A program made the position numbers and the translations under genes. DNA of 52,369 bases from positions 1 to 52,369 of the forward strand of contig JAPHRK010000010.1 in NCBI GenBank assembly GCA_026196105.1. Direction: 5' to 3'. Every line of letters starts with the position of its first letter. Positions within the stretch are counted from its first letter, which is position 1. Shown here in pieces: positions 21,346 through 50,790 of this stretch. Source of the stretch: Rhodospirillales bacterium. GTDB lineage: Bacteria; Pseudomonadota; Alphaproteobacteria; Rhodospirillales; JAPHRK01. The notes beneath the pieces are model-generated. The model was not told the origin of the DNA, made no database searches, and worked only from the letters and a program-made list of their open reading frames with translations.

Positions 21346-21348
21346 AGG

Positions 21349-21888
21349 CTAAGCTGCGAGCCTCCGCTCTTTGGGCTTAGGCCAATGCCAAGTCTGGACC
21401 GTTGCTTCTAGGGGTTGCATGGTTATGCATTCAGTCGGGCAGATGTCGATGCATTTTTCACAGCTGGTACAAATTTCGCCAATCACTGTGTGAATTTGTT
21501 TTGGTGCACCGATGAAGGCATCCGTCGGGCATTGGGCAAAGCAACGGGTGCAGCCAATGCATAAATCTTCATTCACAAAAGCAACGGCAGGCTCTTTTTC
21601 TTCCATGGAAGTCAAGTCAACTTCAACACTGAGTTTTTTAGCTAAATCAGCAGCTAAGGCACGCCCACCTGGGGGACAAAGCGTAACGTCAGCCTTACCA
21701 TCAGCTAAAGCTTCAGCCGCTGGACCACATCCAGGGAAACCACATTGCCCACATTGGGAACCGGGAAGCATTTCTTCCACTTCAATAACCAGCGGATTGC
21801 CTTCTACCTTTAGGTATTTTGACGCAATACCAAGCAGTCCACCTAAAACAAGACCTAAGAGGGTCAAACTACCAATTGCTGTTAACAT
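21349..21888 (-). CDS. rnfB: Rnf complex ferredoxin-like subunit RnfB
   Basis: 179 residues. An N-terminal membrane helix (about 5-22) is followed by the Fe-S domain with Cys46/49/54/71 (SQCGQCGFPGC) and a 2[4Fe-4S] ferredoxin domain with Cys110/113/116/120 and Cys140/143/146/150. It is the probable docking site of soluble ferredoxin. Shorter than enterobacterial or clostridial homologues, with no extra ferredoxin repeats. The 18-base gap after rnfA carries a ribosome site. Confidence 0.95.
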   Translation of the reverse strand: MLTAIGSLTLLGLVLGGLLGIASKYLKVEGNPLVIEVEEMLPGSQCGQCGFPGCGPAAEALADGKADVTLCPPGGRALAADLAKKLSVEVDLTSMEEKEPAVAFVNEDLCIGCTRCFAQCPTDAFIGAPKQIHTVIGEICTSCEKCIDICPTECITMQPLEATVQTWHWPKPKERRLAA

Positions 21889-21906
21889 TAAGTTCTCTCC
21901 TCCCCC

Positions 21907-22497
21907 CTATTGAACCGACAAACCGGAAAAACCCATAAAGGCTAGCGACAGAAGTCCAGCAACGACAAAACCTATAGGAGCACCAGCAAATGACTCCGGA
22001 ACATCCGCAAAAGACAAACGCTCTCGCAGGCCTGCAAAGATAATCATCACTAAGGTGAAACCTAGGGCAGAGCCAACGCCATAAAGCAGGCTCTCAACAA
22101 ATGTATTCTTCTCCTGGATATTAAGCAGAGCGACACCTAAAACCGCACAGTTAGTGGTGATCAAAGGCAGGAAAATTCCTAAAACTTGATAGAGCACAGG
22201 AGAAATTTTCTTAACGGCCATTTCTGTGAACTGAACCACAGCAGCAATAACCAAAATGAATGTCAGAATACGTAAGAACTCAATGCCAAAGGGCTCTAAG
22301 AGAAAGCGCTCAAGCAGCCAACTAGACGCCGCAGAAAGGGTCAGCACAAAAGTGGTGGCAAGTCCCATCCCGATGGCTGTGTCTACCTTATTGGAAACGC
22401 CCATAAATGGACACAGGCCAAGAAACTTGACCAGCACCACGTTATTTACCAACGCTGTTCCTAAAATGATAAGGAGGTATTCCTGCATTTCACCCAA
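21907..22497 (-). CDS. rnfA: Rnf complex membrane subunit RnfA
   Basis: 196 residues, about six membrane helices. [30 protein letters not shown] and [13 protein letters not shown] are highly conserved and contain the Cys residues paired with those of RnfE for the intramembrane [2Fe-2S] cluster. First gene of rnfABCDGEH. A palindromic operator candidate lies ~115-160 bases upstream. Confidence 0.95.
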
Positions 22498-22611
22498 TCA
22501 ACTTCATCAAAAATTAAACTCATTATAAAAGCGGTTATTCGGTACCATTTTACCACTTTATGCAATCATTCAAACCATTTACTGCAAATATGCGCAATAT
22601 ATTGATATGAT

Positions 22612-36112: not shown

Positions 36113-36592
36113 CTACCGCGTAAATTCAATCGCTCCACCGGGAAGCAAGTAAAGCACAATCGCTTCACCGTCCGTCACGGTTGGATTGTGAGCCGTATCA
36201 GGACCGTAGACGACCCAACCGGCACCTTTACCATCAAATTTGGCATCACCTTGGGTGGGGATGACCATGTCGATTTCGCCATTGGGATGCTTGTGGTGGG
36301 GGCCTTTGAGGTCTTTCATTAGGACAACATCAACCGAGCACCCGGCCAGATCATCAGTTGGCTTGATGGGGCGACCGTAACGGATGCCACCATGTTCATT
36401 TTCACACAACCAGCCTTCTTCGATACCTGTTTTGCAACCTGCGGCAATGGCTTGGAACTCTGCGCTATCAGCAGGAAACTCTTTATTAAGTTGCTCACCT
36501 AAAGCAGCATCAACAGTTTTGCCTTCAATCGAGGTAGTCACTTTTTTCAATAAAGCCTGAAACTCATCAACGGTCATCTCATTTTCCTTCAC
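36113..36592 (-). CDS. DUF4863 family protein (4-hydroxylaminobenzoate lyase-like cupin)
   Basis: 159 residues. An N-terminal helical part (VDEFQALLKKVTTSIEGKTV) is followed by a cupin-like barrel with KGPHHKHPNGEIDMVIP and GWVVYGPDTAHNPTVTDGEAIVLYLLPGG, probably metal-binding His/Glu. PnbB, a 4-hydroxylaminobenzoate lyase, belongs to this family, and other members lie near benzoate/benzoyl-CoA (box) gene clusters; this is from memory. Divergent from the NDP-forming synthetase across a 251-base gap that contains the shared operator module, so it may be co-regulated with the pad island. Real substrate unknown. Confidence 0.7.
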   Translation of the reverse strand: MKENEMTVDEFQALLKKVTTSIEGKTVDAALGEQLNKEFPADSAEFQAIAAGCKTGIEEGWLCENEHGGIRYGRPIKPTDDLAGCSVDVVLMKDLKGPHHKHPNGEIDMVIPTQGDAKFDGKGAGWVVYGPDTAHNPTVTDGEAIVLYLLPGGAIEFTR

Positions 36593-36645: not shown

Positions 36646-36710
36646 AGAAAATAGGTATTGCGATACCACTTTTTTTCACTTATGTTAGAATTGTTCGATT
36701 ACCAAACAAT
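36646..36710 (+). promoter_or_regulatory. Pad-island promoter module, copy 1
   Basis: Positions 36646-36674 are identical over 29 bases to 38924-38952 and include the palindrome GGTATTGCGATACC (36654-36667). Twenty-two bases on lies ATTGTTCG-N5-CAAACAAT (36690-36710), an imperfect dyad. Upstream of the NDP-forming synthetase and between it and the DUF4863 gene. Two separate palindromes suggest two regulators, or an operator next to promoter elements. Confidence 0.65.
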
Positions 36711-36843
36711 TTAGGTTCCGAACTATACCCACCAAATAAAAATAATAGGGTAGCCGCTCACTGTCCCAGAGTCTGAATTGGGGGGGATGTGTCAACGGCA
36801 GCTTAAATATAAACAGACTTGACCAGATTAGGAGAGGCCACCT

Positions 36844-38871
36844 ATGAGCCAGACATTAGATCAACAACAAATTTCAAACCTGTTCAAAGAAGCCGCTATT
36901 ACAGCTGCCTGGAACACGGATGCTGCCCCTGCCCTTGGGCGTGAGCTAAGAGTTGAAGTTCAAAACAGTCGTGAGTTTGGCCTTGTTGTCAAAGTTGGCG
37001 TTGGTGGCGTCGAAGGCACCCTTGAAACGAACGCTTTCCGCAAAGGCCGCGCAACTATTGCAGCAGCCGTGGAACTCGTTGATGCAGAGGGTTTGCTTGA
37101 ACTGTTCCAGAAAACCCATGCGTACCAACGCCTCAGTGCCCTCGAAGCTCAAGCCAAACAAGGCTCTCCAGACCAAGCCCTGACTGAAATTTTCTCAGGC
37201 GTCTTACAGCTTGCTAACCAGTATTCACCGTCCAATACTGAAACGTCACAAATCATTGAAACTTTGATTATCGACCCCCTTGTCATTAATAATGGCACAG
37301 CGACTATTGGTGCTGCTGAGGTGCAATTTGGTGATCGAGTTGAAGGTCCTGTTCCTCGGCCCATCCATAAAATCGACAAGCTTATCCATCCTGAGTCTAT
37401 TGGCATCATTGGTGTTTCAGGCACCAAAATGAACTTTGGCCGGATCATCCTGCACAATGTGATCGACAGCGGTTACGACAAAGCCCGCCTAACAATCCTC
37501 AAGCCCGGTGATGATAAAGAAGTGGATGGCGTTAAGTGCGTGCCCAGTCTCGCCGACCTTGAGAATAAATTAGACCTACTCATTGTCGCTGTTCCTTCAG
37601 GGGCAGTTTATGATCTGGTTGATCAAATCATTGCCACTGATGCCGTTGAAGCCGTTATGCTTATTCCTGGTAGCCTTGGCGAAACCAAAGCCAGTGTTGA
37701 GCCAGCAGCCGAGCTCGCTGCAAAAATCAATAAAGCCCATCTCAACGAAAGCGGCGGCCCAATCTTCCTTGGCGCCAACTGCCTTGGCGTGGTTTCCCAC
37801 CCCGGCAATTACGATTCTTGGTTCATTCCTCTAGAGCGCCTTCCTAAGCCACAGAAGAAGAAAGAGCGCAACTCCGTTATGCTGAGCCAAAGTGGTGCCT
37901 TCATGATCACCCGCCTAAGCCGCAATCCTTGGCTTGACCCACGTTACATGTTGGCTCTAGGTAATCAAACCGATCTGACCCATGGGGATATGCTAACCTA
38001 CTTTGCCGAACTTCCTGAATTGGAAACCATTGGTATCTACATTGAGGGTTTTAAAGACCTGGACGGTTTGCATTTTGCTCGCGCAGTTCGCAAAGCCACC
38101 CTTAGCGGCAAACAAGTCGTTATTTATAAATCAGGTCGTACAGAAGCAGGTATGAAAGGCGTTATGGGCCACACAGCCTCTATTGCTGGTGATCCTCAAT
38201 TGTTTGAGTCCGTGCTAAAACAAGCAGGCGCGATTATCACCACTGAATTCACTGAGTTTGATGATATTTTCTATATCGCTGGAGCCTTACATAACAAACA
38301 AATCAACGGCAACCGCCTCGGTGCGATTAGCGGTGCTGGCTTTGAAGCTGTTGGTATGGCAGATAGTGCAGAAACCGATAGCTACGGCCTCGTCGCCGGA
38401 GAGCTCACCCCGGCTTCTGTTGAGAAAGTTGAAGCGATCTTAGAAGCTAAACGCCTGAGTGCTTTAGTCGAAGTTAGAAACCCAATAGACATCAACCCAG
38501 GTGCAGACGATGAAGCGCATTTGCAAATCTCCGAAGCCTTCGCTGCCGACCCGAACATTGATGCCGTTGTTGTAGGGCTCGACCCCACGGCTCCTTCAGT
38601 ACGTTCACTCGTTGAAAGCAAAAAGCGTCCTGGTTATGACATTAGCGATCCAAAAAGCACCGTCACCTTGATGCCTGAGTTAGTAAACCGTAACGACAAA
38701 CCGATTATTGGTGTCGTCGATGGTGGTGAACTTTATGACGCGATGGCAGCTAAGCTTATGGATCAAGGTACCTGCGTATTTCGCACCAGCAGCCGGGCTG
38801 TATTGGCTCTAACCCGTTACACAGAAGCCCGTCTGAACGCTGACGCCATCCGTCGCAAACACAATCAGTAA
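36844..38871 (+). CDS. NDP-forming acyl-CoA synthetase (ACD-like), rearranged domain order
   Basis: 675 residues. The N-terminal ~165 residues resemble the second half of the ATP-grasp beta domain of ADP-forming acyl-CoA synthetases (VKVGVGGVEGTLETNAFRKG ... IIETLIIDPLVINNGTATIGAAEVQF). A CoA-binding Rossmann domain follows (about 180-310, HPESIGIIGVSGTKMNFG), then ligase domains with MLSQSGAFMITRL and the phospho-His candidate in VMGHTASIAGD (about 440). The ATP-grasp N-lobe with the ATP-binding Lys appears to be missing. It reversibly couples acyl-CoA hydrolysis to ADP/GDP phosphorylation in relatives. Substrate here inferred from context: an aryl or arylglyoxylyl-CoA. Ribosome site GGAGAGG. 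Confidence 0.8.
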   Translation: MSQTLDQQQISNLFKEAAITAAWNTDAAPALGRELRVEVQNSREFGLVVKVGVGGVEGTLETNAFRKGRATIAAAVELVDAEGLLELFQKTHAYQRLSALEAQAKQGSPDQALTEIFSGVLQLANQYSPSNTETSQIIETLIIDPLVINNGTATIGAAEVQFGDRVEGPVPRPIHKIDKLIHPESIGIIGVSGTKMNFGRIILHNVIDSGYDKARLTILKPGDDKEVDGVKCVPSLADLENKLDLLIVAVPSGAVYDLVDQIIATDAVEAVMLIPGSLGETKASVEPAAELAAKINKAHLNESGGPIFLGANCLGVVSHPGNYDSWFIPLERLPKPQKKKERNSVMLSQSGAFMITRLSRNPWLDPRYMLALGNQTDLTHGDMLTYFAELPELETIGIYIEGFKDLDGLHFARAVRKATLSGKQVVIYKSGRTEAGMKGVMGHTASIAGDPQLFESVLKQAGAIITTEFTEFDDIFYIAGALHNKQINGNRLGAISGAGFEAVGMADSAETDSYGLVAGELTPASVEKVEAILEAKRLSALVEVRNPIDINPGADDEAHLQISEAFAADPNIDAVVVGLDPTAPSVRSLVESKKRPGYDISDPKSTVTLMPELVNRNDKPIIGVVDGGELYDAMAAKLMDQGTCVFRTSSRAVLALTRYTEARLNADAIRRKHNQ

Positions 38872-38885
38872 GACACAACCTCACT

Positions 38886-38925
38886 CTTAGCCACACCTAT
38901 GCTGGCAACAGCTTGTGTGGCTAAG
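38886..38925 (+). other. Stem-loop between synthetase and thioesterase genes
   Basis: CTTAGCCACAC (38886-38896) pairs perfectly with GTGTGGCTAAG (38915-38925), with an inner GCTG/CAGC. It begins 14 bases after the synthetase stop and has no U tract. It directly abuts the second promoter module. It could stabilise the upstream mRNA or be a weak terminator. Confidence 0.6.
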
Positions 38926-38989
38926 AAAATAGGTATTGCGATACCACTTTTTCTAGCTTATTATGCAGATTGTTCGTATATCGAACAAT
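38924..38989 (+). promoter_or_regulatory. Pad-island promoter module, copy 2
   Basis: The first 29 bases (38924-38952) are identical to copy 1, with GGTATTGCGATACC at 38932-38945. After a 23-base spacer comes ATTGTTCG-N5-CGAACAAT (38969-38989), a perfect 8-bp-arm dyad. It lies ~105 bases before the thioesterase ATG and should drive the thioesterase-padBCD unit. Confidence 0.7.
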
Positions 38990-39094: not shown

Positions 39095-39502
39095 ATGAAG
39101 GACAGTCTTGTAGTAGGCCTCTCTAAAACCGAGCGCATCGACGTTGATGCTGGCCGCACCATCAGTTTTTTTGGCGATGATCTCGCCGTTTATTCTACAC
39201 CAAGCCTCATTTATGACATTGAAGTTGTCGCCCGGAACCTCATGCTTGAGCATTCCGACGAAGGTGAAGACTCTGTCGGTACTGTTGTGAACATTGCTCA
39301 CATGGGCGCAACACTTAAAGGTAACTGGGTTGAGATCACCGCAACCATTACCGAACTCAAAGGCCCTGGCGTTACTTTTGAAATTGTCGCCAAAGACGCC
39401 CTTGAAACCGTTTGCAAAGGCTCCCACCAACGTTTTGCCGTTCCCATCGCAGGGCTTGAGGCAAAACTAAAAGGGAAAGCAGCCAAAATCGCTGCCCTTT
39501 AA
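39095..39502 (+). CDS. FlK-type hot-dog acyl-CoA thioesterase
   Basis: 135 residues, single hot-dog fold of the fluoroacetyl-CoA thioesterase (FlK) type: VYSTPSLIYDIEVVARNLM, SVGTVVNIAHMGATLKGNWVEITA, CKGSHQRFAV. Thr35, Glu43 and His69 match the FlK triad Thr42/Glu50/His76 with identical spacing (8 and 26 residues). Hydrolyses acyl-CoA; the substrate is inferred from the position directly before padB, perhaps phenylglyoxylyl-CoA, whose alpha-carbonyl, like fluorine, activates the thioester. Own promoter module upstream; a strong stem-loop separates it from padB. Ribosome site AGGAAG. Confidence 0.85.
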   Translation: MKDSLVVGLSKTERIDVDAGRTISFFGDDLAVYSTPSLIYDIEVVARNLMLEHSDEGEDSVGTVVNIAHMGATLKGNWVEITATITELKGPGVTFEIVAKDALETVCKGSHQRFAVPIAGLEAKLKGKAAKIAAL

Positions 39503-39630: not shown

Positions 39631-42369
39631 ATGGATGCCGAAAGTGGTAAAGACGTCAAGAAAGTACCAACTTATTGCTATAACTGCGTAGCAGGTCCTG
39701 ACTTCATGAAAGTGAAAGTCGTTGACGGTGTCGCGACTGAAGTCGAAGGAAACTTCGATTTTGTTGAGGATACACCTTCAGCTGGTCGTGTCTGTGTGAA
39801 GCCATTTGGTCTTATCCAAAAAGCGTATAATCCCAACCGGGTGCTGACGCCGATGAAACGGACCAATCCTAAAAAAGGTAAAGATCAAAAACCAGGCTGG
39901 GTTCCTATTTCATGGGATGAGGCTCTGGATACTGTCGCAGGTAAAGTAAAAGAAGCCATTGCTGCGGGCCCTAGGGACTCTGCTGGTTATCCTCGGATTG
40001 CCTGTAGTTTCGGTGGTGGTGGTACCCCAACTTATTACATGGGTACCCTCCCTGCCTATCTCTCAACCCTTGGCCCTCTTGATTTCAGTTTCGGCTCTGG
40101 CCAAGGTGTTAAGTGTTATCACTCTGAACACCTTTATGGCGAGTTCTGGCACCGTGCCTTTACCGTGGCTCCCGATACCCCTAACTGCAACTACGTCCTA
40201 TCATTTGGCTACAATGTTGATGCTTCTGGCGGTGTTTGTGGTGTTAAGCGTCATGCTGATGCGCGTGGCCGCGGCGCAAAGCGGGTTCAGATTGAGCCCC
40301 ATCTATCTATTTCTTCTGGCACCGCTTCTGAGTGGGTGCCTATTAAAGCGAAAACCGATCCAGCCTTCATGTTTGCCCTTATCCACGTCATGCTCCACGA
40401 GCAGCGGGACAAACTGGACATTCCGTTCCTAAAAGACCGGACAAACTCTCCTTATTTGATTGCACCTAACGGCTATTATCTACGGGAAAAATCCACTAAG
40501 AAGCCTTTGGTATGGGATTTAGCATCTGAAAAAGCTGTCCCCTTCGACACGAAGGGCATTGACGTTGCTCTTGAAGGATCCTTTGCCACAACAGGCTGGG
40601 AAATGGGCCCTGACGATGATGAGTGGGATCATGATACCCCCGTTAAATGTCAAACCTCTTTCCAAGCCCTTTGCGACCATATGAAGAAATTCACCCCTCT
40701 GTGGGCCTCGCGCATTTGCGAAATCCATCAGAAGGTTATTCGGCGTATTGCCATCGAATTTGTTAGCGAAGCTTGTGTTGGTCAAACCATTGAAATTGAA
40801 GGCCGCACCCTCCCTTATCGTCCTGTAGCAGTAGCCTTAGGCAAAACCGTTAACAGTGGTTGGGGTGGCTACGAATGCTGTTGGTCTCGTACCTTGATGG
40901 CTGTTCTCCTTGGTGCGCTGGAAGTTCCCGGCGGTACCCTCGGCACAACAGTTCGCTTGAACCGTCCGGCAACCTCTCGTCAGGCTAGTGTTACGATGCA
41001 TCCTGATGGCTTCATGGAATATCCTATGAATGCGACCGATAAAGAAAATTGGCTCGCTGAACCAGATGTGCGTAACGCCAACCGAACTTTGGTTCCTCTT
41101 GGGGCTAACTCTCCTTGGTCTGTTGCTCTCGGCCCCACACACTTAGCCTGGATGCAACAAGAAAAAGGCCCAGACCATTGGCCACAGGCAACTCCGCCAG
41201 ATGTCTGGTTTGTCTTTAGGACCAACCCAGCAGTTTCCTTCTGGGATACGGAACAAGTTTCAAAAGTTATGGCAAAGTTCCCCTTCACGGTGGCTTTTGC
41301 TTACACTGACGATGAAACCAACCATATGGCAGATATTCTGTTGCCTGATTGCACAGACATTGAAGCGACCCAGCTTATCCGGGTTGGTGGCACCAAGTTC
41401 ATTGAGCAGTTCTGGGACAAGCAAGGTTTTGCCCTTCGCCAGCCTACAATAGAGCCTGTGGGTGATGCCAAAGATATGACCTGGATCACCACCGAACTTG
41501 CCAAACGGACAGGTAAACTCGAAGGCTACAACAACGCCGTTAACCGTGGTGCCCATGGGGTTCCCCTTTCCGGCGAAGGTTATGACTTCTCCTTGGATAT
41601 TACCAAGGAACACGAAGTTGATGAAATTTGGGATGCAACTTGTCGCGCTGCTAGTGCAGAGATTACGGGTGGTGAAGAGACCGATGGCCTTGATTGGTTT
41701 AAAGAACATGGTCTTCGTCTTAAACCCTTCTCCAAAATCGATTGGTACCTTGAAGCCGAGCTGCAAGACCAAGGCATTCGGTGGGAACTCCCCTACCAAG
41801 AACGCCTCGTTCGAACTGGTAAACAACTCGGCCGCCGCCTCCATGAAAAGGGTATTAGCTGGTGGGATGAGCAGCTTGAAGAGTATGAAGCTTTCCCTGA
41901 ATGGAAAGATTTGCCCCAGATTTGGGATGATGCGATCGAACGTAATTACGATGTAGACATCAAAGACTTCCCTTTCTGGCTCATGACCTCACGGTCCATG
42001 CAGTACAACTGGGGCAGCAACGCGTCTCTCCAGATGATTCGCGAAGTTGCGAGTAACATCCAAGGCCATGGTGGTGTTATTATGAACACCAAAAAGGCTG
42101 AAGAGCTTGGACTTGAAGAAGGAGATTGGCTGGAAATCCGCTCTCCTGTCAATGCCACTCGCGGCCACTTGCTGACCAAACACGGCATTCGCCCTGACAC
42201 CTTATTGATGATCGGTCAGTTTGATCACTGGGCCACGCCTTATGCAAAAGAGTTTGGGGCACCGAGCATGAACGCCTTGATCCCTATGCTATTGGATCTA
42301 ACCGATGCTACAGGGTCGAGCTGTGACCTGACAAAAGTGAAGATTACCAAGTTGGGAGGCAGCTCATGA
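39631..42369 (+). CDS. padB: Phenylacetyl-CoA:acceptor oxidoreductase, molybdopterin subunit
   Basis: 912 residues, DMSO-reductase family. Catalytic subunit that oxidises the alpha-methylene of phenylacetyl-CoA to the keto level. N-terminal Fe-S segment (YCYNCVAGPDF, Cys16 and Cys19, then Cys55 in GRVCVKPFG), followed by the molybdopterin domains (SWDEALDTVAGKV; SGQGVKCYHSEH; VFRTNPAVSFWDTEQ) and the C-terminal cofactor-binding barrel (IQGHGGVIMNTKKAEELGLEEGDWLEI). The Cys normally third in the motif is absent; Asp24 lies near. There is no Tat signal, so it faces the cytoplasm, consistent with a CoA substrate. The padB name is assigned from the whole cluster. Confidence 0.87.
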   Translation: MDAESGKDVKKVPTYCYNCVAGPDFMKVKVVDGVATEVEGNFDFVEDTPSAGRVCVKPFGLIQKAYNPNRVLTPMKRTNPKKGKDQKPGWVPISWDEALDTVAGKVKEAIAAGPRDSAGYPRIACSFGGGGTPTYYMGTLPAYLSTLGPLDFSFGSGQGVKCYHSEHLYGEFWHRAFTVAPDTPNCNYVLSFGYNVDASGGVCGVKRHADARGRGAKRVQIEPHLSISSGTASEWVPIKAKTDPAFMFALIHVMLHEQRDKLDIPFLKDRTNSPYLIAPNGYYLREKSTKKPLVWDLASEKAVPFDTKGIDVALEGSFATTGWEMGPDDDEWDHDTPVKCQTSFQALCDHMKKFTPLWASRICEIHQKVIRRIAIEFVSEACVGQTIEIEGRTLPYRPVAVALGKTVNSGWGGYECCWSRTLMAVLLGALEVPGGTLGTTVRLNRPATSRQASVTMHPDGFMEYPMNATDKENWLAEPDVRNANRTLVPLGANSPWSVALGPTHLAWMQQEKGPDHWPQATPPDVWFVFRTNPAVSFWDTEQVSKVMAKFPFTVAFAYTDDETNHMADILLPDCTDIEATQLIRVGGTKFIEQFWDKQGFALRQPTIEPVGDAKDMTWITTELAKRTGKLEGYNNAVNRGAHGVPLSGEGYDFSLDITKEHEVDEIWDATCRAASAEITGGEETDGLDWFKEHGLRLKPFSKIDWYLEAELQDQGIRWELPYQERLVRTGKQLGRRLHEKGISWWDEQLEEYEAFPEWKDLPQIWDDAIERNYDVDIKDFPFWLMTSRSMQYNWGSNASLQMIREVASNIQGHGGVIMNTKKAEELGLEEGDWLEIRSPVNATRGHLLTKHGIRPDTLLMIGQFDHWATPYAKEFGAPSMNALIPMLLDLTDATGSSCDLTKVKITKLGGSS

Positions 42370-43058
42370 CCCGTTGGGTATTTGTCGCCGACCTCAACCG
42401 TTGTGTCGGCTGCCAAACTTGCACCGCTGCGTGCAAACACCGCAATGCTACCGCTCCTGGGGTAATGTGGCGCAAAGTTCTCGATATGGAAGTGGGCGAA
42501 TTTCCTGAAGTTCGTCGGACTTTCGTTCCCACAGGCTGTCACCATTGTGAAAACCCACCTTGCATGCATGTTTGCCCAACCACAGCAACCAAGCAACGCG
42601 ACGATGGTATTATCACGATTGATTATGACCTGTGTATCGGTTGCATGTATTGCTCCGTCGCTTGTCCTTATCAAGCGCGTTATAAAGTCGATATCGTCAA
42701 CAATGCCTACGGGCTGACCAAAATGGCGAACGAAGTAGCTCGGGATGAGGAAAACCTGCCGCGTAAAGCTGTTGCACAGAAATGTACTTTCTGTGCAGAT
42801 CGCATCGACTATGGACTGGAGAACGGTTTAACCCCAGGGGTTGATCCTGATGCCACTCCAGCCTGTGTGAATTCCTGCATTGCTGGCGCTTTGCATATGG
42901 GAAATATTGAAGACCCCAAAAGCAATGTTTCCGTTATGGTTGAAGAGAATGAAACCTTCCTGATGCACGAGGAATTAGGTACTAAACCTGGCTTCTATTA
43001 CATCTGGGATCGTAAGCATGATGCGGATGAAGACACCGCAGAAGGGGGAGAAGAGTAA
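42366..43058 (+). CDS. padC: Phenylacetyl-CoA:acceptor oxidoreductase, iron-sulfur subunit
   Basis: 230 residues, DmsB/NrfC-type protein with four Cys clusters: CVGCQTCTAACKHRN, CHHCENPPCMHVCP, CIGCMYCSVACP and CTFCADR with CVNSCIAGAL. Carries electrons from PadB to the PadD anchor. Begins with MTRWVFVADLNRCVG, no signal peptide. Overlaps padB by 4 bp (ATGA) and padD by one base (TAATG), so the three are made in fixed ratio. Confidence 0.88.
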   Translation: MTRWVFVADLNRCVGCQTCTAACKHRNATAPGVMWRKVLDMEVGEFPEVRRTFVPTGCHHCENPPCMHVCPTTATKQRDDGIITIDYDLCIGCMYCSVACPYQARYKVDIVNNAYGLTKMANEVARDEENLPRKAVAQKCTFCADRIDYGLENGLTPGVDPDATPACVNSCIAGALHMGNIEDPKSNVSVMVEENETFLMHEELGTKPGFYYIWDRKHDADEDTAEGGEE

Positions 43059-43987
43059 TGCCTAAGAGTCAAAACGGCCAAACCCAATACCCAACAACCC
43101 TATACCCTGTCCTTCAACAAGACTGGGATTTACGCGGCACAGGTAACTTTGTCTTTGGCGGCACAGGTACAGGTCTAATTCTTGCCATTACCGTGATGTC
43201 ATTCTTCGGCGTTTCTGGGCAAATTCTTACACTTTTAGCGCTTGCCTTTATCGGCCTTGGGCTGACATGTGTTCTTGCTAAAATCGGACGTCCTTTTAGG
43301 GCAATGAATGTTGTCCTCAATCCACAAACATCTTGGATGACCCGTGAAGGCCTCATTGCTGGCCCCTTATTTATTGCGGGCTTAGCTGCAGCTTGGTTTG
43401 ACCAAGTTTTTGTCTATGTTCTCGCTGCATTTGTCGCCATGGTCTTCCTGTACTGCCAAGGTAAAATCCTTACCGAAGCTAAAGGAATTCCTGCCTGGAG
43501 AACTCCAAAGTCTATTCCCTTATTCATGTCCACAGGCATTGTTGAAGGCGCTGGTATTTTTCTGATTGCCTCCCTCTTCTTAAACCCTGAAGACATGAGT
43601 ATTGTACGGCCTGTTATCTTAGCGCTGCTACTAATTTCTATTGTCTCTAGGGTTTTCACCTGGCGGATTTATTTACGTGATTTGCAAGAAAGCGGTGCCC
43701 CTAAAAAAGCATTAAACGCCTTAGAAAAAGCCGATGGCCCAATAACTTTCATCGGTAACATTCTGCCTGTCTTGTTGTTGCTGGTTTCACAGCTTGTTCC
43801 AGAAAGCGCGGTGATTGCAGCTCTTGTTTCTGGCATCCTTGCCTTTGCAACAGGTTGGTACTTGAAGTTTGTCATCATCAACAAAGCTGCCTTTAACCAA
43901 GGATTTGCTATCCCATTTTCTCCAGCCCGCGGTGGCGGAAAACCTGGACCAGGAACCAAACCTGGGTGGAGAGCACCTAAGCCATGA
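43058..43987 (+). CDS. padD: Phenylacetyl-CoA:acceptor oxidoreductase, membrane anchor
   Basis: 309 residues, about eight membrane helices, DmsC/NrfD-like (HPILQQDWDLRGTGNF-type start, GLTCVLAKIGRPFRAMNVVLNPQTSWMTREGL central). Should anchor PadBC to the inner face of the membrane and pass electrons to quinone. Gly/Pro/Lys-rich tail (FSPARGGGKPGPGTKPGW). No haem-binding pattern is obvious. Followed by a 165-base gap before padJ. Confidence 0.83.
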   Translation: MPKSQNGQTQYPTTLYPVLQQDWDLRGTGNFVFGGTGTGLILAITVMSFFGVSGQILTLLALAFIGLGLTCVLAKIGRPFRAMNVVLNPQTSWMTREGLIAGPLFIAGLAAAWFDQVFVYVLAAFVAMVFLYCQGKILTEAKGIPAWRTPKSIPLFMSTGIVEGAGIFLIASLFLNPEDMSIVRPVILALLLISIVSRVFTWRIYLRDLQESGAPKKALNALEKADGPITFIGNILPVLLLLVSQLVPESAVIAALVSGILAFATGWYLKFVIINKAAFNQGFAIPFSPARGGGKPGPGTKPGWRAPKP

Positions 43988-44111: not shown

Positions 44112-44130
44112 CATTCGTAAAATACGAAAG
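44112..44130 (+). promoter_or_regulatory. Operator-like inverted repeat upstream of padJ
   Basis: TTCGTA-AAA-TACGAA (within 44114-44128) resembles the TTCG/CGAA arms before the synthetase, thioesterase and padE genes, but the arms are two bases further apart. It lies ~25 bases before the padJ ATG, close to the ribosome site, so if bound it would block rather than activate. Confidence 0.4.
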
Positions 44131-44152
44131 ACCCTAAAGGGGGGGTAGAACG

Positions 44153-45460
44153 ATGACTAAAGGCGACAACTACATGTTCGCACCTGAACTGGAAACCATG
44201 CCACGGGACCAGTTAGAAGAGCTGCAATTAGGACACCTGCAAAAAATCCTTCAGCATGCTTATGACAATGTAGATCACTACAAAAAAGCATTCGATGAAA
44301 AAGGCGTTAAGCCCGAAGAGTGCAAGACCCTTACAGATCTCAAAAATTTTCCATTCACAGTGAAAACCGATCTACGGGACGCGTACCCCTTTAATCTGTT
44401 TGCTGTTCCTCGTGAAAAACTCGTTCGTATTCACGCGTCTTCAGGCACCACAGGTAAGCCTACCGTTGTTGGTTATACCGAAGGCGATATTGATCGCTGG
44501 GCTGACCTTATGGCTCGCAGCTTGGCGGCATCTGGTGCTCGCCCTGGTGATATCCTCCACAACGCTTATGGCTACGGCCTCTTCACTGGCGGCTTGGGAG
44601 CTCACTATGGTGGCGAACGCCTAGGTTGCTCCGTTGTTCCAATGTCAGGTGGCAACTCAGAAAAACAAATCCAACTTCTGCAAGATTTTGGTGCACATGT
44701 TCTGTGCAGCACCCCGTCCTATGCAATTGCTCTTGCTGAATATGCAGAGAAAAACGGCATTGACCTTAAAGCTCTTCCTCTTCGCGCAGCTGTCTGTGGT
44801 GCAGAACCTTGGAGCCAAGCCATGCGGGAAGAAATCCAAGAAAAAATGGCCATTACCGCAGGGGACATCTATGGCCTGAGTGAAATTATGGGCCCTGGTG
44901 TTGCTTGTGAATGTGAAGACCAATGTGGTCTCCATGGTTGGGAAGATCACTTCCTGTTTGAAATCATTGATCCAGAAACTGGCGAACCTCAGCCTTATGG
45001 CACGGAAGGCGAATTGGTCATCACCACCTTGACCAAAGAAGCTCTCCCTATGATCCGTTATCGTACCCGTGACATCACGAAGCTAACGGCTGATAAATGC
45101 TCATGTGGGCGGACACACGTTCGTATCTTGCGCGTTACGGGTCGTAATGATGACATGCTGATTATTCGTGGTGTTAACGTTTACCCAAGCCAAATCGAAA
45201 GTGTTATGGTTGGGCTCGAAGGCGTTTCTCCTCATTACCAGTTGGTTGTCCAACGTGAAGGGGCAATGGATACAATGACCGTTGAAGTTGAAGCAGAACA
45301 CGGCGTTGAACCATCTACTTACGACAATATGGGTAAAGAAATTCAGCACCATATTAAATCAATTATTGGTGTTTCTACCCGTGTCGTCGTTCTTGCTCAC
45401 GATGAACTACCCCGTTCACAAGGCAAAGCCATTCGCGTTCGGGATATGCGTAAAGGCTAA
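44153..45460 (+). CDS. padJ: Phenylacetate-CoA ligase (AMP-forming)
   Basis: 435 residues, PaaK family. Adenylation motifs IHASSGTTGKPTVVGYT (P-loop), PLRAAVCGAEPWSQAMRE, DIYGLSEIMGPGVACEC and the hinge ITGRND-type LRVTGRNDDMLIIRGVNVYPSQIE are all present. Forms phenylacetyl-CoA from phenylacetate, ATP and CoA, the first step of the pathway. Strong ribosome site in a G7 tract. Contains a Cys cluster (CECEDQC; CSCG) usual in this family, probably zinc. Ends in its own terminator. Confidence 0.92.
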   Translation: MTKGDNYMFAPELETMPRDQLEELQLGHLQKILQHAYDNVDHYKKAFDEKGVKPEECKTLTDLKNFPFTVKTDLRDAYPFNLFAVPREKLVRIHASSGTTGKPTVVGYTEGDIDRWADLMARSLAASGARPGDILHNAYGYGLFTGGLGAHYGGERLGCSVVPMSGGNSEKQIQLLQDFGAHVLCSTPSYAIALAEYAEKNGIDLKALPLRAAVCGAEPWSQAMREEIQEKMAITAGDIYGLSEIMGPGVACECEDQCGLHGWEDHFLFEIIDPETGEPQPYGTEGELVITTLTKEALPMIRYRTRDITKLTADKCSCGRTHVRILRVTGRNDDMLIIRGVNVYPSQIESVMVGLEGVSPHYQLVVQREGAMDTMTVEVEAEHGVEPSTYDNMGKEIQHHIKSIIGVSTRVVVLAHDELPRSQGKAIRVRDMRKG

Positions 45461-46283: not shown

Positions 46284-46434
46284 TCTAAAAACCTTCAATA
46301 TTCTGGCGAACATAAGTTATCAAGAGAACGGATCATATTTGAAATTCACTGATGTGAAAAGTTCTGCTTAAGACCAAAAAAACGCTTTATATGCCGCGAT
46401 GAAATAGAAGTTTGCATTTTTCAGTCAAATCAAT

Positions 46435-46455
46435 TATGTTCGGTATACGAACAAT
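46435..46455 (+). promoter_or_regulatory. Pad-island operator copy 3, upstream of padE
   Basis: TGTTCG-N5-CGAACA (46438-46454 within) has the same arms, spacing and flanking AT as the dyads at 36690-36710 and 38969-38989. It lies ~100 bases before the padE ATG. The GGTATTGCGATACC element is not present here. Confidence 0.6.
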
Positions 46456-46553
46456 TATAAAAATATGCTTTTAAGGCAATTTCACATTCAATTGATTGGT
46501 TCTGGGATTTGAATCTCGGGGGGGAATACCTCGGCGATTTCGAAAGGTAAGTT

Positions 46554-47093
46554 ATGCGAGAATTATTGATTATAGGCCGTGGTGGACAAGGTGCGCAAAC
46601 GGCCGGAATCCAGTTAGCACAGGCATTTTATAGTGGAGGTAGTTATGTTCAAACCTTCGCGACTTACGGAGGCGCCCGTCGAGGGACCCCGGTCACCTCA
46701 TCCCTACGGGTTGATGATCAACCAATCAGGCTGCGTTGCGATATTGAATGCGCCGATGCACTTTTAATTTTTGACGAAACTCTGCTGGACAAGTTGGTTC
46801 TAAAGCGTGCCGACAGCAAAACTAAAATTGTTGTAAATTCAGCCAAAGCCAGCGACGCTTTCGCAAATCTAGGCGATTACAATATTACCACAATTGATGG
46901 TCGCGATATTGCCCGTCAAAACAATATGGGCAAGGTAGTGAACTCGGCTCTTCTTGGAGCTTTTATTGCTACATTGGCTAACCTCGAGATCGACACATTA
47001 TGCAAGGTGATAGAGGAAACAGCGCCCGTAAAACATCAAGAGAATGTCGCCGCCTGTCGTCAGGCACACCAACAACTCAGCAAAGCGGCGTGA
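46554..47093 (+). CDS. padE: Phenylglyoxylate dehydrogenase gamma subunit
   Basis: 179 residues, gamma domain of the 2-oxoacid:acceptor oxidoreductase superfamily: LIIGRGGQGAQTAGIQLAQA, TYGGARRGTPVTSSLRV, NSALLGAFIATLANLEI. Part of the enzyme that oxidises phenylglyoxylate with CoA and NAD+ to benzoyl-CoA, CO2 and NADH. First gene of the padE-H-G-I operon. Ribosome site GAAAGG. The padE name follows the Aromatoleum evansii gene set. Confidence 0.87.
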   Translation: MRELLIIGRGGQGAQTAGIQLAQAFYSGGSYVQTFATYGGARRGTPVTSSLRVDDQPIRLRCDIECADALLIFDETLLDKLVLKRADSKTKIVVNSAKASDAFANLGDYNITTIDGRDIARQNNMGKVVNSALLGAFIATLANLEIDTLCKVIEETAPVKHQENVAACRQAHQQLSKAA

Positions 47094-47106
47094 GGAGATG
47101 AATAAA

Positions 47107-48753
47107 ATGACGCAACAACCACCAACGCCTCTTTGGACAAATGACACGTCAGAAGCCCGTATGACCGGGACTTGGCGCAGTGCCATGCCCAACTATAAAA
47201 ACTTACCCTCTCCCTGTCGAGGCGCCTGCCCTGTCGGTGGACGGATTGCCGAATGGATTCGGGAAATTGAATTGGGAGATTATAAGAAGGCATGGACAAT
47301 ATTGGCCGACAATAATCCGTTCCCTTCGATTGCTGGGCGGATTTGTCACCACCCATGTGAAACCGATTGTAATCGGAATCAGCTAGATGAAACCGTGGGA
47401 ATTTGTAATCTTGAGCGTTTCGTCGGCGATCTAGCTTTAAAAGAAAACTGGTCCTTTCCTGCACCAACCGTTTCCCGTGATACTTCCATTGCTGTTGTTG
47501 GCGGTGGTCCAGCTGGGTTATCTGCTTGTTATCAGCTCCGCCGCCTTGGGTTCAAAGTATCACTTTATGAATATCAGAAACAACTTGGGGGCCTTCTACG
47601 CTACGGCATCCCAGCCTACCGACTTGAGAAAAAAATATTGGACGGTGAGATCCAACGTATCATTGATATGGGTGTCGATGTCCATCTTAATGCAGAAGTT
47701 GGCAGTGCCGAGGCTCTAAAAGAGCTTCATGAAAAACATGACGCTGTTTATCTTGCCACGGGAGCTAGTCGATCAAAAAACCTTCCTGGTCTCGACTATA
47801 GTCAATCATGGGTCATGGACAGTGCTGACTTCTTAGCTGAGACAAATGCTGAAATGGCCTGCGATCTCGGGAAGGATCTCGTGGTCATTGGCGGTGGCAG
47901 TGCAGCAATGGATGTGGCCCGAACAGCCCGCCGTCTCGGACGGAATGTAACTGTTTTAACTCTAGAGCCAGAAGATAAGTTACCGGCCCACGAAGTTGAG
48001 GTCGTTGAGGCAAAGGAAGAAGAAATAACCTTTGTTTCAGGCGCAATGATGCAGTCCGTTGAGGTCAACGGTGAGCAAATTACGCTTAAATGTATTCGGG
48101 TTGAATTTTTGCAAGGTGAGGCTAGGGGACAATTTACCATCAACCCCATTCCCGGCAGTGAGTTTGAACTCGTCACCAATGGTGTCATCCCCTCTATCGG
48201 ACAAGACGCCGATCTTTCTCGTTGGCAAGACCTGCTTAATTCCGAAGGTCCGGTGATCTCCACTGACAAGCAATGGCAGACTTCGACCCCTGGCATTTTT
48301 GCTGGTGGAGACGTGGCTAGCATGGACCGCTTTGTTACTCAGGCCATCGGCATGGGAAAAGAAGCTGCCTTTGCCATTGCCCGTCAACTTGCCCCGGTGA
48401 GCAATGAAACAAGCTCACCTGACGACCCTATGGTTCCTTATAGTGTTATTAATACAAGCTATCACTCTACTCTTCGCCGTCATCTTGCAGCGAATAGTGA
48501 AGTTGAGGCCCGTCTTCAAACATTTGATGAGGTGCAACAACCTCTGTCGCATGATGAAGCCGTGGCTGAAGCCAGCCGTTGTTTCAGTTGTGGAACGTGT
48601 ATCTTATGTGACAACTGTTACCTCTATTGCCCAGATATGGCGATTATTAAATTAGAGGACGGTTATGAAGTCAAAGATGATTACTGCAAAGGCTGTGGCC
48701 TCTGTGTGGCTGAATGTCCTACCGGCTCCATCGCTATGCAAGAGGAGAAATGA
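47107..48753 (+). CDS. padH: Phenylglyoxylate dehydrogenase NADH subunit with C-terminal ferredoxin domain
   Basis: 548 residues from the ATG at 47107, chosen for the AGGAG nine bases upstream; longer frames overlap padE. GltD-like architecture: N-terminal Cys-rich domain (CRGACPVGGRIAEW; CHHPCETDCNRNQL), FAD motif VVGGGPAGLSACYQL, NAD(P) motif VIGGGSAAMDVARTARRLG, GIFAGGDVASMDRFV, then two [4Fe-4S] motifs (CFSCGTCILCDNCYLYCPDMAI; CKGCGLCVAECPTGSI). The last part resembles the separate delta subunit PadF, which is not otherwise visible. Accepts electrons from the TPP core and reduces NAD+. Confidence 0.83.
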   Translation: MTQQPPTPLWTNDTSEARMTGTWRSAMPNYKNLPSPCRGACPVGGRIAEWIREIELGDYKKAWTILADNNPFPSIAGRICHHPCETDCNRNQLDETVGICNLERFVGDLALKENWSFPAPTVSRDTSIAVVGGGPAGLSACYQLRRLGFKVSLYEYQKQLGGLLRYGIPAYRLEKKILDGEIQRIIDMGVDVHLNAEVGSAEALKELHEKHDAVYLATGASRSKNLPGLDYSQSWVMDSADFLAETNAEMACDLGKDLVVIGGGSAAMDVARTARRLGRNVTVLTLEPEDKLPAHEVEVVEAKEEEITFVSGAMMQSVEVNGEQITLKCIRVEFLQGEARGQFTINPIPGSEFELVTNGVIPSIGQDADLSRWQDLLNSEGPVISTDKQWQTSTPGIFAGGDVASMDRFVTQAIGMGKEAAFAIARQLAPVSNETSSPDDPMVPYSVINTSYHSTLRRHLAANSEVEARLQTFDEVQQPLSHDEAVAEASRCFSCGTCILCDNCYLYCPDMAIIKLEDGYEVKDDYCKGCGLCVAECPTGSIAMQEEK

Positions 48754-48755
48754 GC

Positions 48756-49913
48756 ATGAACGCAATCTCAAATAAAATGCTGCTAAGCGGAAATCATGCC
48801 GTTTCCTGGGCTGTAAAATTGGTTGAGCCAGATGTCGCACCAGTTTATCCCATTACCCCACAAACGCCAATCTTGGAAAAGATTACAGAGTTTGAAGGAC
48901 GCGGTGAAATCACAACCGAACTGGTGACACCGGAATCTGAACATTCAGCTATGTCAGCCTGTATCAGTGCCTCATTAACTGGTGCCCGTGTGTTTACAGC
49001 AACGTCTTCTCAAGGGTTATTGCTGATGCATGAATTATTGCATTATGCCTCTGGAGCCCGAGCGCCGATTGTTATGTTTAACGTCAACCGGACACCAGCA
49101 TCTCCTTGGGGGTTTTGGCCTGATCAATTAGATAGCCTCTCTCAGCGCGACACAGGTTGGATTCAGCTCTATAGCGAAAATCCTCAGGAATCTCTTGATT
49201 CAGTTATTCAGGGTTATCGCATCGCAGAAGCTGTTGGCATCCCGACCATGATTTCTCATGACGCTTTTTATGTGTCCCATGCCTTGGAAGTGGTAGAGGT
49301 GCCCGAGAAACAGATGGTCAGTGATTTTCTACCAGACTACGAACCGGAAAATGTACTGGATGTAGAGGCAGGTCGATCTTTCGGTGCGCCAATTGATCAA
49401 ATGACCTGGAATCGTAGCCGTCAGGAACTCGCGGGTTCTTTTGCTAAGGTTGAAGACCTCGTCAATGAGACTGGAGAAGCGTACGGCAAGCTGACTTCAC
49501 GGCCTTATGGGGCTTTGGAAGAATATCGTACCGATGATGCAGAAGTGGTCATTGTTACCATGGGCTCCATGTGCGGGACGACACGGGTTGCCGTAGATAC
49601 CCTTCGCGAGCAAGGTATAGCCGCAGGACTTCTGAAAGTAAGGTTATTTAAGCCACTTCCTTCAGCAAGCTTACGCAAGGCCCTCGAAGGGGTCCCTTGC
49701 GCAATCGTACTAGATCGCAATTACTCTCCAGGAATGGGTGGTATTCTGCATCAAGAACTGAAAAGTGCTTTGTACGGGATGAACGATGCCCCTCGTCTTC
49801 ACGGTATTATGGCCGGAGTTGGTGGCGTTAACGTGCCTCCTGAGAAAATCGAAAGTTTGGTGACCAAATATAAGGACGCCCCAACCTCAGTTGAACCCCA
49901 GTGGGCGGAGTAG
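48756..49913 (+). CDS. padG: Phenylglyoxylate dehydrogenase alpha subunit
   Basis: 385 residues from the ATG at 48756 (AGGAG eight bases upstream); an ATG at 48750 overlapping the padH TGA is possible. PorA-like: GNHAVSWAVKLVEPDVAPVYPITPQTP, ELVTPESEHSAMSACISASLTGARVFTATSSQGLLLM, and the C-terminal domain VVIVTMGSMCGTTRVAVDTLREQGIAAGLLKVRLFKPLP. Contributes the TPP pyrimidine side and the CoA/2-oxoacid pocket. Confidence 0.88.
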   Translation: MNAISNKMLLSGNHAVSWAVKLVEPDVAPVYPITPQTPILEKITEFEGRGEITTELVTPESEHSAMSACISASLTGARVFTATSSQGLLLMHELLHYASGARAPIVMFNVNRTPASPWGFWPDQLDSLSQRDTGWIQLYSENPQESLDSVIQGYRIAEAVGIPTMISHDAFYVSHALEVVEVPEKQMVSDFLPDYEPENVLDVEAGRSFGAPIDQMTWNRSRQELAGSFAKVEDLVNETGEAYGKLTSRPYGALEEYRTDDAEVVIVTMGSMCGTTRVAVDTLREQGIAAGLLKVRLFKPLPSASLRKALEGVPCAIVLDRNYSPGMGGILHQELKSALYGMNDAPRLHGIMAGVGGVNVPPEKIESLVTKYKDAPTSVEPQWAE

Positions 49914-49917
49914 CATC

Positions 49918-50790
49918 ATGGAACAAATTAATTATACAGACGAAGGTCAATTTTTCTCAGGCCACGTAGCTTGCGCAGGTTGTGTAGAAGCCGTTTCTCT
50001 GCGGGTTATTCTTAATACTGTAGGCCCTGACGCCGTTGCCGTTGTTCCACCTTCTTGCACAGCCGTAATCTGTGGCGGCTACCCCTTTAGTTCAGTCAAA
50101 ATTCCTGTCTATCATACGACTTTGGAATCAGGCGCGGCCTCTGCAACTGGTGTGAAACGGGCTTTAGTAAAAAAAGGCAAGCCAGACACCACTGTTTTGT
50201 GTCTGGCCGGCGATGGCGGCACCTATGATATTGGTCTGCAAGCTTTGTCTTCCGCGGCAGAACGTAACGAAGACATTCTCTACATTTGCTTTGATAATGA
50301 GGGCTACATGAATACAGGCGGGCAGAAAAGTTCGTCAACGCCAGTCAATGCGGTTACCGGCAGTACGCCAGCGGGTAAAAGCACAAAGAAGAAAAACATG
50401 ATTGAGATTCTGGCTGCCCACCGCATTCCTTACGTAGCGACAGCCAGCCCGTCAGACCTAAACGACATGGCCGCCAAGGTTAAAAAAGCACAAGGAATGA
50501 AGGGTACAAAAGTGATCATCATTCTTATTCCTTGCTTGCCGGGATGGGGTGTTGCCGACAACTCAGCGGTTAAAATCGCACGTATGGCCGTAGAATCTGG
50601 TGTCTTTCCTCTTTTTGAAATTGAGGGTGGATTGGACTACACGATGAACTATTCCAGTAAGAATGGCTCCGTTAAGGAATATCTGAGCGTTCAGAAACGT
50701 TTCCGTCACCTTAACGAGGATCAAATCTCCTCGATCGAAAATGACGTTGACGAAGATTGGCAACGTATAGCCGACAAAGCGGGTGTGTAA
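49918..50790 (+). CDS. padI: Phenylglyoxylate dehydrogenase beta subunit (TPP-binding)
   Basis: 290 residues from the ATG at 49918 (GGAG seven bases upstream). PorB-like: FSGHVACAGCVEAVSLRVIL, SCTAVICGG, the TPP motif LAGDGGTYDIGLQALSSAAERNEDILYICFDNEGYMNTGGQKSS, and RIPYVATASPSDLNDMAAKV. Binds TPP-Mg and, with PadG, decarboxylates phenylglyoxylate. Last gene of the operon; 4-base gap after padG; terminator downstream. Confidence 0.88.
   Translation: MEQINYTDEGQFFSGHVACAGCVEAVSLRVILNTVGPDAVAVVPPSCTAVICGGYPFSSVKIPVYHTTLESGAASATGVKRALVKKGKPDTTVLCLAGDGGTYDIGLQALSSAAERNEDILYICFDNEGYMNTGGQKSSSTPVNAVTGSTPAGKSTKKKNMIEILAAHRIPYVATASPSDLNDMAAKVKKAQGMKGTKVIIILIPCLPGWGVADNSAVKIARMAVESGVFPLFEIEGGLDYTMNYSSKNGSVKEYLSVQKRFRHLNEDQISSIENDVDEDWQRIADKAGV

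Follow-up and report, generated by a model that had tools for sequence, protein, structure and literature searches.

The stretch of DNA analyzed here (the window) is the entire 52,369-nucleotide contig C54 of a Rhodospirillales bacterium, whose genome (the source genome) comprises 3.9 Mb in 82 contigs. The window carries two copies, A and B, of a short promoter module in front of two neighbouring gene groups that probably serve oxygen-free phenylacetate breakdown. Based on sequence comparison, we consider it quite likely that the module is a sigma-70-type promoter of composite structure, containing two independent operators, one for a BadM-like Rrf2 regulator and one for a MarR-family regulator, that both are repressor sites, and that the module has been copied. 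The presence of two sites with two regulator families is well supported by these comparisons, from which we infer the binding partners, the ligands, the sign of regulation and the start sites. The parts are ordinary and the assembly appears unusual, namely a copied promoter that would join a BadM-type operator at the -35 with a MarR operator at the start.

Two copies of a promoter module with two predicted operators

An earlier note on this DNA had pointed to 29 identical bases in the two copies and to a similar dyad behind each. Direct reading bears out both: the identity is exact and stops on both sides, and each copy then leads into a dyad of the ATTGTTCG-N5-CGAACAAT type. The gaps of 22 and 23 bases given in that note hold when counted from the end of the 14-mer GGTATTGCGATACC inside the module (36667 and 38945), not from the end of the 29-mer. 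The features of the two promoters, together with a third dyad (C) that was absent from the earlier note, are as follows.

36646..36674, forward strand: module copy A, 29 bases identical to copy B
36654..36667, forward strand: predicted Rrf2/BadM-type operator core GGTATTGCGATACC, copy A, 23.1 bits with a matrix from other organisms
36658..36663, forward strand: predicted -35 TTGCGA within core A
36681..36686, forward strand: predicted -10 TATGTT of promoter A, 17 bases past the -35
36690..36710, forward strand: MarR-type dyad A, ATTGTTCGATTACCAAACAAT, over the predicted start, one mismatch to an 8-5-8 palindrome
38924..38952, forward strand: module copy B, 29 bases identical to copy A
38932..38945, forward strand: predicted Rrf2/BadM-type operator core GGTATTGCGATACC, copy B, 23.1 bits
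38936..38941, forward strand: predicted -35 TTGCGA of promoter B
38959..38964, forward strand: predicted -10 TATTAT of promoter B, 17 bases past the -35
38969..38989, forward strand: MarR-type dyad B, ATTGTTCGTATATCGAACAAT, arms forming a perfect palindrome with no mismatch
46412..46440, forward strand: possible promoter C, TTGCAT-N17-TATGTT, its -10 being the start of dyad C (by eye)
46435..46455, forward strand: MarR-type dyad C, TATGTTCGGTATACGAACAAT, before a 2-oxoacid oxidoreductase (POR) operon, with no Rrf2-type core within 110 bp

Local alignment of the A and B intergenic regions gave a score of 73 over about 66 bp, compared with at most 27 in 300 shuffles. In the module promoters the dyad begins within the -10 or a few bases downstream of it, and at promoters A, B and C (C by eye), as well as in relatives, the dyads lie over the predicted -10 or close behind it. 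To place the -10 relative to the core, we compared eight core promoters (A, B, C45, G300, G335, OFTM364, G348 and G372, with G335, G348 and G372 belonging to one genus): the mean match to TATAAT was 4.0 of 6 at spacing 17, against at most 2.9 at 21 other spacings (8-29). The upstream cores start 30 to 41 bases before the dyad, and the two proteins would therefore probably bind independently.

Occurrence in the source genome and motif matrices

Two samples served for comparison. The first consists of 80 named loci, the best 80 of 510 PadB relatives from public genomes, of which 78 entered the scans upstream of padB (L086 and L111 were excluded); the second consists of 199 genomes of the same order, 46 of them with a PadB match. 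Genes were called with a codon-based caller because longest-open-reading-frame calls were poor in GC-rich loci, and calls were still poor at, for example, L137, L139 and L317. Some labels were read from the sequence with no model, namely TolB-like (L004), hcr-like beyond the large subunit, the small gene before PnbB in G296, oah beyond its enoyl-CoA hydratase domain, and boxC in nine regions besides L188 and L312.

Exact GGTATTGCGATACC occurs in the whole genome only in copies A and B. One-mismatch matches lie at two more places, one some 180 bp upstream of a gene for a branched-chain-type binding protein (where the longer matrix described below gives only 5.9 bits) and the other inside a tolB-like gene. 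Likewise, the dyad at zero or one mismatch is found only at A and B genome-wide, and at exactly two mismatches there are three more: dyad C in the window (46435), C44:13566 upstream of a gene of the benzoate-CoA ligase family (630 bits, cut-off 375), and C45:47915 upstream of a gene for a DctP-type binding protein. Allowing up to three mismatches gave 21 dyads against 18 for the reversed control; therefore, weaker matches are not above chance.

We built one matrix for each motif. The dyad matrix comes from 31 foreign sites, picked from pattern matches that front genes of interest with a plausible promoter; context-free matches, such as those in L184, L185, L186, L190, L263, L267 and L269 and those in L271-L273, L275, L277 and L278, were left out. 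It scores A at 27.0, B at 26.7, C45 at 23.5, C at 22.5 and C44 at 21.9 bits, with 9.5 bits for the next best site in the window and four sites of at least 16 bits in a simulated genome. As the matrix goes back to a search that used the window's dyad, part of its fit is circular, and the gene neighbours of the dyad and its co-occurrence with MarR are free of this circularity. The Rrf2 matrix (28 bp, consensus GTAAATTGGTACTGCAGTACCAATTTAC) was trained on 27 sites in foreign padB loci with the source genome excluded, leaving out intragenic or context-free matches (e.g. L047-L049, L098, L075, L080, L087 9367 and L088 18124) and the second halves of double sites. In a simulated 3.9 Mb sequence it found one site of at least 16 bits and none of at least 18 bits.

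The dyad accompanies a MarR-family regulator

In the named loci, a dyad (at least 13 of 16 positions) lies 450-550 bp before padB, fronting the FlK-family gene, in 4 of 78, and most loci have none. Dyads were present in eight of nine genomes picked for good PadB matches, where their neighbours include FlK-padB, the POR operon (L181), a CoA-ligase operon with a MarR gene as its second gene, and an operon whose large subunit is of the xanthine-dehydrogenase type and similar to 4-hydroxybenzoyl-CoA reductase. Elsewhere in the order, dyads front ior, hpaB and FlK-padB; the ior dyad is identical in sequence to dyad A, with a thioesterase gene and a PnbB gene on its other side.

A MarR homologue at E 1e-25 or better was found in 58 of the 199 order genomes, and at least one dyad at up to two mismatches in 100. 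Three or more dyads occur in 19 of the 29 genomes with a MarR match of at least 150 bits and in 9 of the 170 others (Fisher p 5e-13), a comparison weakened by a threshold set after the data were seen and by the relatedness of the genomes. The mean number of dyads was 4.4 in these 29 genomes, 0.9 in the 29 with weaker matches and 0.65 in the 141 without, compared with 0.2-0.3 per genome for the reversed pattern. Ligase-MarR operons have a dyad just upstream in four of four cases in the first genome set opened. In the survey of MarR regions (16 of 20 fetched regions annotated, 13 of them from other genomes), this arrangement recurred in 6 of the 13, five at three mismatches, and was absent from seven. 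Family f174 (G303, G322 and relatives) has a MarR homologue but no PadB match; G303 and G322 each carry nine to ten dyads.

As the earlier note had stated, no regulator gene is seen in the island around the module; candidates of both families lie elsewhere in the genome. The MarR candidate is

C8:6782-7255 (L243), reverse strand: candidate MarR gene, 157 aa, Pfam MarR 62.6 bits

It has a benzoate-CoA ligase family gene in its vicinity, as in the dyad genomes, with a single gene in between. The closest solved chain to it by sequence is the CouR chain 6c28 (E 2.4e-28; next best 2.2e-15), which we take to be the R. palustris CouR protein. CouR lets go of DNA upon aryl-CoA (PMC4737184, PMC9594313). 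The likeness to CouR lies in this chain, whereas the CouR box compared, that of RHA1, is cATTGA-N5-TCAATg as opposed to ATTGTTCG-N5-CGAACAAT here, and the target genes differ. BadR, another MarR protein (R. palustris and Aromatoleum sp. CIB), resembles the proposed regulator in that it represses anaerobic ring-acid genes from operators over promoter elements and responds to a CoA-ester effector, but its operator, CAAT-N2-ATTG, is much shorter and has the half-sites in opposite order (PMC9795900). Since the operator sequences differ, we rejected both the BadR and the RHA1 CouR operator as the identity of the dyad.

It is rather unlikely that, with the two-site layout being right, the dyad is bound by one of the MarR paralogues on C69 or C41 or by another protein family. 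The source genome does have three MarR homologues; the MarR tree gives no choice among them, for its backbone does not resolve and the rows of G347 and G479 look misread. Besides, the only candidate site is a weak one of 10.4 bits directly upstream of the C8 gene, of which about 83 are expected per 3.9 Mb, and no dyad precedes the ligase gene of the C8 MarR in the source genome, which detracts from the C8 assignment too. On the other hand, C8 scores best (172.5 versus 153.6 and 141.2 bits for the paralogues), shares its ligase neighbourhood with the dyad genomes, and is alone among the three in having any candidate site beside it. We keep the C8 MarR as the candidate for the dyad.

Origin of the promoter pair

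Three genes flank the module copies in the window.

36113..36592, reverse strand: gene of the PnbB family (4-hydroxylaminobenzoate lyase family), divergent from promoter A
36844..38871, forward strand: ADP-forming acyl-CoA synthetase-like gene, behind promoter A
39095..39502, forward strand: FlK-family thioesterase gene, behind promoter B

In G300, a single core-plus-dyad module (core 25.6 bits) lies between the divergent PnbB and FlK-padB, and no CoA-ligase gene separates them. G296 shows this divergence too, with just the dyad, and an additional small gene precedes its PnbB. In the source genome, PnbB and FlK are separated by the acyl-CoA ligase gene, which has a module on either side. Given the single module in G300, the module here has therefore probably been duplicated around the ADP-forming CoA-ligase gene. 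The simplest account, supported only thinly by the one genome with a full single module, is that the ligase gene probably entered between PnbB and FlK and that the promoter was duplicated with it. The suggestion of the earlier note that the module was kept or copied for co-regulation fits this picture, as the modules are homologous by alignment and G300 manages with one.

Convergence or gene conversion, in place of promoter copying around an inserted ligase gene, is a doubtful source of the similarity of A and B. In its favour, only about 66 bp align, the remainder of the intergenic regions being different, and the ancestral arrangement is drawn from one full-module genome, G300. Against this, PnbB and FlK in that genome diverge over exactly one core-plus-dyad module, and 29 identical bases exceed the apparent need of the operators alone; copying remains our preferred account.

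The 14-mer belongs to a palindrome associated with Rrf2 regulators

We found GTATTGNNRTAC 20 times in the 78 named padB loci, against about 5 estimated by chance, and 6 of these sites lie in the 900 bp upstream of padB, where we estimate about 0.1 by chance. The wider GGTAYTGYARTACC at up to two mismatches occurred 40 times in 80 loci, against 1 to 23 times for twelve shuffled half-site patterns. Sites of the GGTAYTGYARTACC type precede GNAT-Rrf2 operons (L056, L066 and L095), GNAT or hemerythrin-GNAT genes (L064, L103, L106 and L109), benzoate-type CoA ligases, POR-like genes and FlK-padB; the GNAT and hemerythrin identities are by Pfam for L064, L066, L095 and L103. With the Rrf2 matrix, a site of at least 12 bits lies within 800 bp before padB in 25 of the 78 named loci, 10 of which contributed no training site. 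A CRP/FNR-type reading of the 14-mer, based on its 5-4-5 layout, was dropped because the palindrome is tied to GNAT-Rrf2 operons. The idea in the earlier note that the module may bind two different regulators is thus in line with the comparisons, which tie the 14-mer family to GNAT-Rrf2 operons and the dyad family to a MarR gene.

An Rrf2 homologue search at E 1e-20 gave matches in 87 of the 199 order genomes, and we surveyed the regions around the homologues from 20 of these. The best site scored 14.6-31.2 bits in 19 of the 20 regions and lay 369-654 bp before the Rrf2 gene in 17, leaving room for a GNAT gene; a called GNAT gene starts at most 140 bp from the site in 13. G335 contributed both a training locus (its contig L054) and one of the 20 surveyed Rrf2 regions (L310). 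Across the site lies boxC, by model in L312 and by its N-terminus in nine more regions.

The source genome has one Rrf2 homologue (C44:21294-21707), behind a GNAT gene and across from boxC (926 bits, cut-off 712).

L188 17295-17729 (C44): candidate Rrf2 gene, rrf2_super 106.8 bits, cut-off 73.3
L188 16734-17270 (C44): adjacent GNAT gene, Pfam Acetyltransf_1 40.8 bits, cut-off 20.7

The Rrf2-type site between boxC and this GNAT-Rrf2 pair, first noticed with the short pattern, scores 24.9 bits. Seven aligned Rrf2 relatives share no invariant cysteine, and therefore an Fe-S sensor of the IscR type is not indicated.

Genes of the benzoyl-CoA reductase type were located independently of the motif, by Pfam PF06050 alone. 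The 1.5 kb around the bcr-type genes contained no site, and the start of the operon on C5 lay further out: 130 bp before the had-oah-dch-bcrCBAD operon (C5:940-8914) the matrix gives 26.3 bits (L334 810). BcrC, B, A, D, had and dch of this operon are above the NCBIfam cut-offs, and their order is the one quoted for Thauera (PMC6449761). A further site of 19.0 bits precedes a double-GNAT gene on C5 (L334 11161), and the best site at a second BcrBC-like cluster (C25) reaches about 9 bits. In the window itself, a double site precedes the rnf operon.

22533..22554, forward strand: Rrf2-type double site before the rnf operon, 12.4 and 16.1 bits, 8 bases apart
17395..22497, reverse strand: rnf genes E, D, C, B and A by model (the scan omitted 18087-18731 between E and D)

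The same double arrangement occurs before rnf homologues in L098 (15.8 and 10.6 bits). The rnf double site suggests that ferredoxin supply is under the same Rrf2-type regulator.

In R. palustris, the benzoyl-CoA reductase operon is repressed by BadM, and this repression is lifted by acetamidobenzoates that BadL produces, BadL and BadM being a GNAT and Rrf2 pair (PMC6191541). The candidate here resembles the BadM/BadL-badDEFGAB system of Rhodopseudomonas palustris in that an Rrf2 gene stands beside a GNAT gene in aromatic acid metabolism and the predicted site fronts a benzoyl-CoA reductase operon, a likeness of gene context; it differs in that here a site is predicted over the -35 of the phenylacetate promoters too, beside a MarR site (PMC6191541).

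Could the 14-mer be merely the context of the -35 box, identical through a recent promoter copy, with a single MarR regulator for all three promoters? We regard this as improbable. It would explain why the 14-mer contains the -35, why promoter C lacks it and why A and B are homologous. In addition, the short pattern GGTAYTGYRRTACC at up to one mismatch is unenriched against its reversed control (here 4 and 8 versus 15 and 11), which tells against a second operator as well; therefore, only the longer matrix is specific. Random scatter across coding sequence unconnected with aromatic genes, named in the earlier note as evidence against the module, did not appear for the dyad at up to two mismatches, whereas the short 14-mer at up to one mismatch stayed at the level of its reversed control. 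However, the longer palindrome stands before padB in other classes (the 25 loci above), ahead of the Rrf2 gene in 17 of the 20 order genomes surveyed, and before bcr, boxC/GNAT-Rrf2 and rnf here, and the latter sites are therefore not explicable by copying of the module. An Rrf2-type operator over the -35 remains the reading we favour.

Double palindromes of 22 bp, of the GGTATTGTAGTACTACAATACC type, were seen at L064 14371-14392, L106 20458-20479 and L109 18629-18650; they consist of two overlapping cores 8 bases apart. A hemerythrin gene lies behind an Rrf2-type site in L103 by Pfam, and also in L106 and L109 by sequence reading.

Co-occurrence of the two sites

Four of the five dyad promoters of the source genome (A, B, C44 and C45) carry an Rrf2-type site of at least 12 bits within 110 bp, at C44 on the gene side of the dyad. 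By the same measure, 10 of 36 dyads have such a site compared with 61 of 7200 random places, and 8 of 34 dyads when two training promoters are excluded.

A number of observations weigh against the two-operator reading. The sites of the dyad matrix were not only found with the window's own dyad, as mentioned above, but also selected for context. Of the 10 dyads with an Rrf2-type site, two (OFTM364 and G335) trained the Rrf2 matrix, and G335, G348 and G372 come from one genus. At the FlK promoters of G293, G296 and G353 a dyad is present but no clear core, and promoter C likewise lacks an Rrf2-type core. High MarR scorers without dyads exist (G301, G321 and G347), and four G303 dyads that were opened had no obvious aromatic neighbours. 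A site at C22:3335 (L189 3335-3355; 19.3 bits, three mismatches to the palindrome) is unexplained. Finally, 3 of the 20 Rrf2 regions deviate: the site is 1.3-1.5 kb away in L325 and L326, and L321 is cut upstream.

Proposed two-repressor control

Taken together, we propose the following mechanism. GGTATTGCGATACC would be the core of an operator for the BadM-like Rrf2 regulator, covering the -35, and the ATTGTTCG-N5-CGAACAAT dyad an operator for the MarR-family regulator, covering the -10 and start region (predicted start sites at about 36693 for A and 38971 for B). Either protein, when bound, would block RNA polymerase, so that the acyl-CoA ligase gene (A) and the FlK-padBCD operon (B), served by what would be one promoter copied around the CoA-ligase gene, would fire only once both proteins release, for example in the joint presence of an aryl-CoA and a signal from the benzoate pathway. 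The POR operon would have the MarR site only, and the rnf and benzoyl-CoA reductase operons the Rrf2-type site only.

Such a two-key design would gate the peripheral phenylacetate genes by a CouR-like MarR protein sensing aryl-CoA plus a BadM-like Rrf2 protein at the same promoter. Because the Rrf2 protein would also govern the central bcr, box and rnf genes, the entry genes would open only when ring reduction is licensed, and promoter copying would have passed both keys to the newly placed CoA-ligase gene. This larger scheme may or may not hold, with about equal plausibility either way.

That one or both proteins activate instead of repressing is hard to credit, even though the weak -35 boxes (TTGCGA and TTGTCG) would fit a need for help and IscR-type Rrf2 proteins can activate. 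Some MarR proteins activate as well (PMC4737184), but sites over the -35 and the start fit a steric block, and the R. palustris BadM, RHA1 CouR and BadR proteins are described as repressors (PMC6191541, PMC4737184, PMC9795900).

The open-access literature searched contains little on the regulation of anaerobic phenylacetate breakdown, and the motif pair is not described there; as this mostly excludes subscription papers, the absence proves little. The analysis yields two operator motifs, two candidate regulator genes and a predicted regulon in one genome, supported by many others. The predicted regulon comprises the acyl-CoA ligase, padBCD, POR, a benzoate ligase with ABC uptake, TRAP uptake, bcr, box and rnf. 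It also provides a likely DNA motif for BadM-like Rrf2 proteins across several bacterial classes, and a probable example of a copied promoter bringing a neighbouring gene under the same control.

Island genes and further observations

The island spans 36-51 kb, with the gene order PnbB (reverse strand), ADP-forming acyl-CoA synthetase-like, FlK, a Mo/Fe-S/NrfD complex, a phenylacetate-CoA ligase-like gene, a methyltransferase (reverse strand) and a 2-oxoacid oxidoreductase operon of four genes, one of them for an NAD(P)-binding subunit. The genes beyond FlK are placed as follows.

39631..43987, forward strand: padBCD-like genes for molybdopterin, Fe-S and NrfD-type subunits
44153..45460, forward strand: phenylacetate-CoA ligase-like gene, 605 bits, curated cut-off 646
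46554..50790, forward strand: 2-oxoacid oxidoreductase (POR) operon, padE-I-like, behind dyad C

We take this gene content to be that of the anaerobic phenylacetate (Pad) cluster. The subunits stay below the equivalog level of NCBIfam (score/cut-off: PadE 74/300, PadG 251/700, PadI 225/700 and PaaK 605/646 bits), and we therefore call the genes Pad-like, by cluster content only. As in the Pad pathway, which leads from phenylacetyl-CoA to benzoyl-CoA (PMC9765128), genes for a Mo/Fe-S/NrfD complex, a phenylacetate-CoA ligase-like protein and a 2-oxoacid oxidoreductase are clustered, but the pad cluster of A. aromaticum EbN1 has padR and none was seen in the island here.

Runs of seven G stand shortly before the first genes of three island units (36780-36786, 44139-44145 and 46518-46524), and runs of six G also precede the ligase genes of G353 and G452. 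A looser dyad with other spacing, TTCGTAAAATACGAA, lies at 44114-44128 before the phenylacetate-CoA ligase-like gene. Beside the island, 32925-35555 encodes a hybrid histidine kinase with PAS domains, a receiver and a C-terminal hemerythrin domain. Elsewhere in the window, 15552-16580 has a weak APH(3') phosphotransferase match (46 bits against a cut-off of 205) and is probably an ordinary kinase-fold protein.

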